DNA of 33,375 bases from Anaerolinea thermophila (lineage in GTDB: Bacteria > Chloroflexota > Anaerolineae > Anaerolineales > Villigracilaceae): positions 1-33,375 of the forward strand of contig DYKX01000009.1 in assembly GCA_020722375.1 (NCBI GenBank), given 5' to 3'. This document shows, in pieces, positions 15,804 to 19,554 of this stretch. Every line of letters begins with the position of its first letter. Positions within the stretch are counted from its first letter, which is position 1. The notes under the pieces are model-generated. The model saw only the letters and a program-made list of their open reading frames with translations. It was not told the origin of the DNA and searched no databases. The position numbers and the translations under genes were made by a program.

Positions 15804-15900
15804 CTAGTACCGCAACCAGGTGAACTTGTAGCGCAATTTGCTAAATTGCGCTCGGCAAATTGGCAATTTGCCCTACAACTTTAACTTGTGGAGGTACTAG
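15804..15900. repeat. Nested cruciform element overlapping the nirS-like stop codon
   Basis: CTAGTACC/GGTACTAG outer; TTGTAG/CTACAA inner; arms GCGCAATTT-GCT-AAATTGCGC and GGCAAATT-GGC-AATTTGCC. Confidence 0.75.
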
Positions 15901-18293
15901 TAGATATCGTTCGCGGTGTTGTGGACATTGAACTTGCCGGTCGGGGTGATCAGATTGGGAATGCGGGCGACCTCTTCCAGCGTGGCATCGTCATAGATGA
16001 CGATCTCGCCAGTCTCGCCGGGCCTGGCAGCGTCGCCCCACAGGCTGACCCATACCTGCGTTCCATCCTTGTTGTACTCAAAGTGGACCGCGCGCCCGTA
16101 AGCGCCAACCTCCCAACACTTGTAAACCTTGGTCGGGTCCGATTTGGCAATGACGCAGATGGTGCGTGCCAGCGCCGGGTCCGAATTGAGCGTCATATCC
16201 ACCCAGATCCACTGGCTGTTGGGATGAGTCTTGATGAACAGACTGCCAGAACCCGGCAGAGGCGTCGTGCGGACCGCCTTCCAGGCGTTGTCCGCGTGCC
16301 CTTCGGGGTCGGTCCCGACCGACATGACAGAGGGCTCGCCAAGATGCGGCGTGCTCCACACCGGACCGAATTCGGGGTCCAGCCAGTTCGCGCCGCGCCC
16401 AGGATGCGGAACCGCGCCCACGTCGGCGATTCCCGCCAGGCCGCCGGTCTTCAAGTCCACGACCGCGATCTTGTTGGACTGGTTGGCCGCCACGAGGAAG
16501 TAGCGATGCGTCGAGTCCAGTCCGCCGTCGTGCAGGAAGAGGGCGGCGCTGATCATCTTGATGGATGGATTGAGCGGGTCGGTATAATTCACGATCCAGA
16601 TCTGCCCGGTCTCTTTGACGTTGACGATCCACTCCGGCTTGTAATGCGAGGCAAGGATGCTTGCCACGCGCGGTTCGGGATGGAATTCGCCCGTATCGAA
16701 CGTGTAACTGCGGCTCGAAACAACCTTCATCGGCTCGAGCGTCTGGCCATCGAGGATGGCGAAATGCGGCGGCCAGTAGCAGCCCGTGATGGCGTATTTG
16801 TCGCGGAAATCGCCCTCAGGCCCCTCGTACTTGCTCACTTCCACCGAACGGGCGTCGTAACAGGTCTGCACGCGCGCCACCACTTCGGGCTTCTCCATCC
16901 AGAGGTCAATCAAAGCGAGGCGTCCATCGCGTCCGATCACGTAGGCGTAACGTCCCGAAGCCGACATGCGCGTGATGTGAACCGCATAACCGCTATCCAC
17001 GGTGCTGACGATCTCGAAGGTATCACCGTCAATGATGGCAACCTGTCCCGCATCGCGCAGGGTGACAATGAAGTAGTTGTCAATGTTGCGTGTGGTCTGC
17101 GGTGAGGTGGGGCGCTGATCCACAGGCGTGATCAACTGCCACGAATCTTTCATCTGCTGGAGAGAGAGTTCAGGCGGAGCGGGCGGTTCGTTTTGCAGGA
17201 ACTTCGCCATAATCTCGGTCTGCTCCTGGGTTAGAACGCCCTGCTTGCCCCAATCGGGCATGCCGCGCGTTGTCCCGTTGAAGATGATCGCCGAGAGACC
17301 CACCGTCCCTTTGGGGAGGGTCTTGTCGGGTGTCAGAGCGGGACCCGTCGCGCCTTTGCGCAGCGTCCCGTGACAACCCGCGCACCGCTCGAAGAACGTC
17401 TGCTTCGCCCAGGCAAATTCCTCTTCCGTCAGCGTGGGGGCCTCGGACGTTGTCGCCGCGGCCTGTTCCCCAGAATCAGTAGTCGTTTCGGTCGTTGCGG
17501 TCAGTTGCGCCGCGCTCTCTGGCAACCCCGCAAGATAGGTCACCACCTGTTGGAAATCCTCCTCGCTGAATAACCCAGACATGGAAGGCATCAGCCCATC
17601 CTGGCACGGACCGGTCGGGCAGTCTGGCGCAATGAAAGCGCTGGGAGTCTCCATGGACTCACGGATGTACTCCTCGGCAGTCTTTGCCTTGCCCGTGTAG
17701 TCTGACGATGTGACGCGCTCTCCCGCAGTCTTGCCGAGATTTGTGAGGTCTGGCCCAATACTACCCACTGCGTTGGGCACACCAGGAATGACGTGGCAGG
17801 CGGCACAGCCACCCTTCTGGAACAACTGGGCCAGGTTTGTGTCCACGGCCGCGGCTGGTTGCGCGGCAACGACGGGAACGTCTTTCGCGGTCACCTGCAA
17901 GACACCGAGCATCCCAAGTTCAGCATGATGCTCCACACTGTCGTGATATTCCAATTCGCCTTCCTGCTGCGGGACCTGGAAGGTCACCGAGGCGGTTTCG
18001 CCTTTTTCGGAAACCGTCTTCGTGCCGACCTTCAAGTCGGGGAAGTAGATGTCGTGCTTGCCCCATCCGCCATTGACCAGGGTCACGGTGATGGTCTGTC
18101 CCGCCTCGGCGGTCAACGTCGGGTTCAGAATGCCGTTGATATCCCCGCCAACCCCCATAAACGACATATTGCCGTTGTTGAATTCAGTGGTGAGAACGTA
18201 CTCTTTGGCGCTCAAGTCCGGCTGCCTCCCACCGCAAGCGACCAGAACAACAGCAACGATCACGAGAAAGAAGAGAAAGCGAACTGTCTTCAT
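15897..18293 (-). CDS. nirS: Lipoprotein NirS-like cytochrome cd1 with N-terminal cupredoxin-like domain and two c-type hemes
   Basis: Lipobox VVLVAC; cupredoxin-like fold motifs; CAACH and CAGCH; d1 propeller motifs GYAVHITRMSASGRY, HPEPRVASILASH, LFLHDGGLDSTHRYF, HPGRGANW, LITPTGKFNVHNT. Confidence 0.88.
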   Translation of the reverse strand: MKTVRFLFFLVIVAVVLVACGGRQPDLSAKEYVLTTEFNNGNMSFMGVGGDINGILNPTLTAEAGQTITVTLVNGGWGKHDIYFPDLKVGTKTVSEKGETASVTFQVPQQEGELEYHDSVEHHAELGMLGVLQVTAKDVPVVAAQPAAAVDTNLAQLFQKGGCAACHVIPGVPNAVGSIGPDLTNLGKTAGERVTSSDYTGKAKTAEEYIRESMETPSAFIAPDCPTGPCQDGLMPSMSGLFSEEDFQQVVTYLAGLPESAAQLTATTETTTDSGEQAAATTSEAPTLTEEEFAWAKQTFFERCAGCHGTLRKGATGPALTPDKTLPKGTVGLSAIIFNGTTRGMPDWGKQGVLTQEQTEIMAKFLQNEPPAPPELSLQQMKDSWQLITPVDQRPTSPQTTRNIDNYFIVTLRDAGQVAIIDGDTFEIVSTVDSGYAVHITRMSASGRYAYVIGRDGRLALIDLWMEKPEVVARVQTCYDARSVEVSKYEGPEGDFRDKYAITGCYWPPHFAILDGQTLEPMKVVSSRSYTFDTGEFHPEPRVASILASHYKPEWIVNVKETGQIWIVNYTDPLNPSIKMISAALFLHDGGLDSTHRYFLVAANQSNKIAVVDLKTGGLAGIADVGAVPHPGRGANWLDPEFGPVWSTPHLGEPSVMSVGTDPEGHADNAWKAVRTTPLPGSGSLFIKTHPNSQWIWVDMTLNSDPALARTICVIAKSDPTKVYKCWEVGAYGRAVHFEYNKDGTQVWVSLWGDAARPGETGEIVIYDDATLEEVARIPNLITPTGKFNVHNTANDIY

Positions 18294-18473: not shown

Positions 18474-19554
18474 TTACGCACCACTTTCCAAGGACGGCAC
18501 AGGCAGGAGCGAACGCCGATACTTGAATTGATGTCCCCAGTTCATGATGGGCTTTTCGATGAGACGATAAGAGAGTTCTGCCACCAAACAAAGCAAAACA
18601 CAGACGAGCAACATGGCAACGACTGGATTAAGCGTGATGGAAGCGCCAGCCAGGAAAGTTGCGAAAACGAGGCGGATCGGTTTATGAAGCAAGTAAATGC
18701 CGTAGGAACGCAGTCCCAGCCACACGAGCGCTTTATTGCCAAAGAAAAGGCCTGGTTTTTCGGGCGAACTGACCAGCCCTAAAATCAACAGGTCGGCGTA
18801 GAAAAAGGCGAGGAAGAAATGCGGAATCGGCTGGCCGATCCCTGCCTCGGTTTTGAACAGGTAAGCGATCCCAACGAAAAAGACAGGCAGCGCCCACAGG
18901 AAGTATTTCTTCCTGGCGTGGATGAAATCCTGCGCCGATTGCGATTGCCAAAGAATCGCGATCAGAACGCCAAGCATGAGCGAGTCCGCGCGATGGAGTG
19001 GCAATTGATAGGACGCCAGCGGACTGTCAGTGAAGAAACGCAGGACGGGGGCGAGCAAGATGAGAAAGATGGACAGGCCCGCGAGATATTTCCGATTCAG
19101 ATTGCGCACAGAGAGGGAGAGGACAATGTAAAACTGTTCCTCCAGCGCGAGGGACCAGGTCACATCCAGCCAGGGATCGCGCCAGAAATTTCTGGCCGCA
19201 TACAGGAAGCTTTGGGTAAACGTAAAATACGACCAGAACGGCAAATGCCTGGCAAAAGAAGACCCCAGCATTTCTGGTTCAAAGGTCATCACCAGAAAAA
19301 AAAACCAGGAGCAGGACCCAATACAGAGGCAGGATGCGCGCGCCACGCCGCAGGTAGAACGTCTGGTAGTAGTTCGAAGCGTCCCTGTTTCTCAGGAGGA
19401 TGTCGGTGATCAGAAAGCCCGAAAGGACGAAGAACAAATCCACACCGCTCCAGAAGAGCGGCGGTTTGAACTGTTCGGGAACGTAATGATGGACCAGAAC
19501 AATCAGGATGGCAATTCCCCGCAGGGCATCCAGCGCGGGCAGGCGTTTCATCAA
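18474..19554 (-). pseudogene. Acyltransferase family 3 (OafA-like), split by a frameshift
   Basis: N-terminal LPALDALRGIAILIVLVHHY...FFVLSGFLITDILL in one frame; C-terminal TM part in another; frames meet at a 9-nt homopolymer 19296-19304. Confidence 0.8.

Follow-up and report, generated by a model that had tools for sequence, protein, structure and literature searches.

Canonical cytochrome cd1 nitrite reductases (NirS), represented by the enzymes of Pseudomonas aeruginosa and Paracoccus (1nir, 1gq1), are soluble, periplasmic proteins with one c heme, encoded in genomes that also carry the genes for heme d1 biosynthesis. Their gene, nirS, serves as a standard denitrification marker, its presence being read as a sign that the organism can make NO from nitrite unaided. 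The route to heme d1 starts from siroheme and involves NirDLGH, NirJ, NirF with NirC, and NirN (PMC13168839); in P. aeruginosa NirS the cofactor is bound non-covalently after insertion in the periplasm (PMC3694632, PMC13168839). In this enzyme R156, R198 and R372 bind d1 side chains, H182 ligates the iron, H327 and H369 bind nitrite and W498 acts as a lid (PMC7278500). The heme d1 maturation proteins NirN and NirF (6rtd, 6tv2) share the d1-propeller fold. Extended forms of the reductase are also on record: Schwartz et al. 2022 describe C1-C2-NirS and cupredoxin-C1-C2-NirS proteins in Chloroflexi (PMC8756737; the cupredoxin form in Figure A6c), Anaerolinea thermolimosa being reported there as a carrier of C1-C2-NirS, and the C1-C2-NirS fusion has been assigned to NirS clade 1g (PMC10999283).

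The stretch of DNA analysed here, 33,375 nucleotides from an Anaerolineae genome (hereafter the window), encodes on its minus strand a 798-aa lipoprotein in which a cupredoxin fold, two cytochrome c domains (C1 and C2) and a NirS-type d1 propeller follow one another. The features are as follows, with the evidence for each in brackets.

15897..18293, minus strand: cupredoxin-C1-C2-NirS cytochrome cd1 nitrite reductase lipoprotein, 798 aa (Pfam, phmmer, AF2 model, Foldseek).
18234..18293, minus strand: lipoprotein signal peptide, aa 1-20, with lipobox LVAC and C20 (sequence; C20 kept in 12/12 full-length cupredoxin-type sequences).
17880..18212, minus strand: cupredoxin-fold domain without the type-1 copper Cys, aa 28-138 (weak Pfam matches; homology to the N-terminal domain of 2dv6/6tfd).
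17940-17942, minus strand: D118, at the position of the copper Cys (Asp in 12/12 sequences).
17514..17861, minus strand: C1 cytochrome c domain, aa 145-260, with CAACH at 163-167, the probable axial ligand M235 and C225/C230 (Pfam, alignment).
17184..17438, minus strand: C2 cytochrome c domain, aa 286-370, with CAGCH at 304-308 and axial M345 (Pfam, phmmer, alignment).
15900..17111, minus strand: d1-heme propeller, aa 395-798, with R413, H439, R455, H588, H630, R633 and W752 (Pfam, phmmer, alignment, AF2 model).

A sequence-only reading of the window had proposed a four-domain NirS lipoprotein at this position, with a lipobox (VVLVAC), a cupredoxin-like N-terminus, the two heme-binding motifs and a complete propeller, and all of these were borne out. 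Domain searches placed Cytochrom_D1 at aa 403-793 (425.6 bits), identified cytochrome c domains spanning aa 155-257 and aa 297-366, and returned weak cupredoxin matches over aa 28-137. NirS structures are the best solved relatives by phmmer (E about 1e-177 over aa 284-798), NirN (4e-40) and NirF (1e-7) scoring far more weakly, and an AF2 model of the protein (mean pLDDT 84, pTM 0.68) retrieved NirS first in Foldseek (6tpo, E 1.6e-64, target TM 0.84). The C2 domain is the counterpart of the heme c domain in canonical NirS and possesses the heme-binding motif and axial Met expected of it (H308 and M345); over C2 and the d1 domain the identity to the P. aeruginosa and Paracoccus enzymes is about 51%. 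By its sequence, therefore, the window protein can be classified as a membrane-anchored NirS-type cytochrome cd1 nitrite reductase. Relative to the canonical enzyme it adds a lipid anchor, a cupredoxin domain, an extra c heme and four propeller cysteines, and it resides in a host without a d1 pathway.

The fusion itself is not new. The window protein shares with the published Chloroflexi variant the phylum of the host and the order of domains, with the cupredoxin, C1 and C2 all N-terminal to NirS, and on sequence grounds it is to be regarded as a further member of that variant, so that novelty of the architecture was rejected. Contig DIDP01000039.1, listed in Table A3 of PMC8756737, corresponds to our locus L017, whose product shares 86% identity with the window protein across aa 301-798. 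In this locus (L017:10001-12366) nirS is split by a frame change between the C1 and C2 parts, and in another (L018:2051-3968) by frame changes within C1 and before C2, possibly as a result of sequencing errors. An extra N-terminal cytochrome c is also found in a gammaproteobacterial NirS (L038:3947-6301, from the Lysobacteraceae MAG contig JANJTY010000311.1). It has no clear homology to C1 (blastp E 0.02) and is joined to a proteobacterial d1 domain; to judge from these comparisons this fusion apparently arose independently of the Chloroflexi one. What was known beforehand is thus the domain architecture, and what is surprising is the lack of the d1 pathway in the genome; neither heme d1 supply nor the missing copper Cys is discussed in the passages of PMC8756737 that were searched.

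A tree built from 87 d1 domains was used to assess the identity of the propeller. In it the window protein belongs to a group of Chloroflexota sequences nested, along with proteobacterial NirS, within the NirS clade (support 99). Three further groups branch outside that clade: NirN (97), NirF (100) and a divergent set of Anaerolineae proteins (99). Grouping with NirN- or NirF-like non-reductases, which the sequence-only reading had said would refute its proposal, is thus not seen in the tree, nor do the residues of the active site point to it. Seven d1-pocket and catalytic residues of P. aeruginosa NirS have identical equivalents in the window protein (R413=R156, H439=H182, R455=R198, H588=H327, H630=H369, R633=R372 and W752=W498), and all seven are unchanged in 42/42 Chloroflexota NirS, except where one partial sequence has gaps. 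The positions of H327 and R372 are occupied by D/E and S in NirN and by Y and G in NirF, none of which occurs there in the window protein; with 20-25% identity only, unlike catalytic residues and separate clades, a NirN- or NirF-like identity was rejected. One detail of the earlier annotation has to be amended: of the two segments it had named as catalytic His contexts, FLHDGG does contain the equivalent of His327 (H588), but HPEPRVASILASH is not such a context, and the second histidine, H630, lies in VPHPGRG. The d1 domain, 92% identical to that of the related locus L008 with a dN/dS of about 0.05, is evidently under purifying selection by this measure.

Two further observations concern the same family of folds. 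Four propeller cysteines (aa 478, 505, 713 and 726) are present in 42/42 Chloroflexota NirS and in 0/25 proteobacterial NirS; cysteines 713 and 726 are opposite each other on a predicted hairpin, and disulfides among these residues are therefore possible in the model. The divergent Anaerolineae group (L129-L136) consists of cd1-like proteins with one c heme that keep both catalytic His and have Ser or Pro in place of Arg372; their genomes likewise yielded no NirDLGH match over the cut-off.

At the other end of the protein, the sequence-only reading had interpreted the fused N-terminal domains as electron-donor modules, which does not hold for the cupredoxin. The homologous N-terminal cupredoxin domain of Hyphomicrobium denitrificans NirK (2dv6, 6tfd; phmmer E about 1e-13, and E about 1e-15) ligates copper through Cys, His and Met (YYCSIAGHRQAGM; YYCSI..GHRQAGM in 2dv6), whereas the window protein has Asp for Cys and a catalytic part of the cd1 instead of the copper type. 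The Asp is found in 12/12 cupredoxin-type sequences and no Cys occurs anywhere in the aligned cupredoxin domains of these 12; the first His is kept in 10/12, the second in 7/12 (lost in 5/12) and the Met in 12/12. The His-Cys-His-Met set of type-1 copper electron carriers is thus incomplete and, since the ligand Cys is missing, we rejected a role of this domain as blue-copper electron donor; a structural, docking or spacer domain is more likely. C1, on the other hand, retains its heme motif, the conserved Met (M235) and an invariant cysteine pair (C225/C230). Taken with the loss of the copper Cys, the retained heme motif and Met make C1 to C2 to d1 the likely path of electrons.

The genomic surroundings of nirS offer some indication of its function. 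In the window the gene lies between those for a glutamine synthetase and an acyltransferase, the latter apparently broken up into two ORFs that overlap in different frames (18474-19554), which suggests a frameshift or an assembly error, and no denitrification genes were seen nearby. Among the loci compared, only a Crp/Fnr-type regulator recurs widely beside nirS, a cluster of this type lying near the gene in about a dozen. Two close relatives, L003 and L006, have narH- and narI-type genes beside nirS (called by Pfam in L003 and by resemblance to the L003 genes in L006), and in L006 a NarK-family transporter is also encoded in the region; in this they differ from the two main examples of PMC8756737, near whose nirS no denitrification genes are reported in the passages searched. 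This nar-nir clustering supports a putative role of the NirS in nitrate and nitrite respiration. It also bears on the idea that the NirS has no d1 and is retained solely for scaffolding or as a plain c-type carrier of electrons. There is a precedent in P. aeruginosa, whose NirS can serve as a scaffold in d1-free form (PMC7278500); with the catalytic histidines, the d1 arginines and the tryptophan strictly conserved and nar genes adjoining nirS in relatives, we regard such a role as very improbable here. Other neighbours include a multicopper protein resembling NirK, whose gene is near nirS in one locus (L043:5020-5820), and short membrane proteins that recur next to nirS in L003 (6568-8855), L006, L009, L010 and L013. 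The latter gave no family match, one having weak similarity to COX1, and are perhaps NO-related.

The earlier remark that no heme d1 biosynthesis genes lie in the window was confirmed, and the search was extended to the host MAG (2.95 Mb, 88.9% complete), to 48 distinct Anaerolineae genomes with this NirS (duplicates removed; NirJ and HemC tested in 30) and to 10 proteobacterial NirS genomes searched identically as controls. We used PF17805 for NirDLGH, TIGR04051 for NirJ, TIGR01469 for SUMT (NirE-type) and PF01379 for HemC, and scored NirF/NirN as a second full-length PF02239 copy. These profiles found no match to NirDLGH, a second d1 propeller, SUMT or HemC in the host genome and no NirJ over the cut-off. 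Among the relatives the outcome was the same for NirDLGH (0/48), NirF/NirN (0/48) and NirJ (0/30 over the cut-off), while SUMT, the first siroheme enzyme, is present in 11/48 and HemC in 8/30. SUMT, four NirDLGH domains and NirF/NirN-type copies were recovered in 10/10 controls, nine of which also had NirJ over the cut-off and the tenth a match of 495 bits. We found no paper that discusses such an absence in this clade, the supplement of PMC10999283 (nirBEFJNT by NirS clade) lying outside our search.

An incomplete host MAG naturally raises the question of whether the pathway is missing only from draft assemblies, or whether divergent homologues were overlooked. Three single-contig genomes (G014, G279 and G294, 97-99% complete) contain NirS and lack NirDLGH, NirF and SUMT, which shows that the absence does not stem from draft assembly. 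The same models detect the genes in the 10 controls, that for NirDLGH matching in archaea as well, and the two weak NirDLGH matches we examined proved to be ordinary Lrp/AsnC regulators. In a survey of 396 genomes of the class, 8 had a strong siroheme decarboxylase and 27 had NirS, with zero overlap; since less than one shared genome is expected by chance, this shows that the pathway is lacking, not that the two avoid each other. Together with the single-contig genomes the survey led us to reject assembly gaps, and we consider this explanation close to refuted. Absence of all d1 biosynthesis genes had been counted in advance as evidence against a NirS. Such absence is indeed what the host MAG and its clade display, but with an intact d1 pocket we do not take it to refute the assignment: host d1 synthesis (NirE, NirDLGH, NirJ, NirF) is the usual genome context of NirS and not a feature of the protein family. 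The real question becomes the source of the cofactor.

One answer would be an undescribed route to heme d1 or dihydro-heme d1 that dispenses with recognisable NirDLGH, NirJ and NirF and starts perhaps from imported heme or siroheme. The fully conserved pocket agrees with it, as do the SUMT genes of some members, HemC and SUMT occurring together in G042, G059 and G060, and the presence of radical SAM/SPASM enzymes. However, SUMT is missing in most members and HemC in 22 of the 30 tested, which therefore cannot make siroheme de novo; given this lack of HemC, most of the members tested appear to import the heme for their c-type cytochromes. The weak NirJ matches were rejected as NirJ, none being near its cut-off: the best, encoded next to hemB and hemE, is over the cut-off for TIGR04053 and fits AhbD heme b synthase next best, and those of the host score best as PqqE-like, ScmE/ScmF-like or AhbD-like. 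Nor does anything beyond the Crp/Fnr-type regulator recur widely beside nirS as a candidate for such a route, which we judge unlikely.

Alternatively, the propeller may bind another tetrapyrrole, such as heme b, siroheme or a partial d1 precursor, and carry out related chemistry, for example slow conversion of nitrite or NO. The missing pathway in 48/48 genomes and the existence of clade-specific changes, the four cysteines among them, speak for it, and the three pocket arginines, which bind side-chain carboxylates, cannot by themselves separate d1 from related tetrapyrroles. Against it, these changes fall outside the seven residues that contact d1 or nitrite in P. aeruginosa NirS, all of which are unchanged in the clade. 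We see this as rather unlikely.

Since the known d1 pathway is absent in the host and in every relative checked, supply of a d1-type heme by neighbouring denitrifiers is the source we favour. Chloroflexota are monoderm, and the lipid of the protein would hold it on the outside of the cytoplasmic membrane, where electrons of the respiratory chain would enter at the C1 heme and pass by way of the C2 heme c to the propeller, whose d1-type heme would reduce nitrite to NO. The cofactor would be made and released by neighbouring denitrifiers and then loaded onto NirS, whose exposure outside the membrane would make loading possible without d1 import. Because d1 is held non-covalently and inserted outside the cytoplasm in P. 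aeruginosa, a lipid-tethered NirS could indeed take up released d1. The absence of NirN and NirF, the d1-loading helpers in Pseudomonas, counts against such an outside supply. On this reading free heme d1 would be available to and taken up by the clade, and its members would reduce nitrite. That the window protein is a respiratory NirS obtaining its d1-type heme from other organisms, with electrons running from C1 through C2 to d1, seems to us about an even chance or slightly less; that catalytically intact Anaerolineae NirS across the class rely on community-made heme d1, loaded outside the membrane, is a more tentative proposal.

An intact nirS group in genomes without the known d1 route would imply a new d1 pathway, interspecies sharing of the cofactor or a NirS working with another heme, and with any of these outcomes environmental surveys would have to count nirS differently. 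Supply by the community, if true, would amount to a shared, cross-fed use of heme d1.
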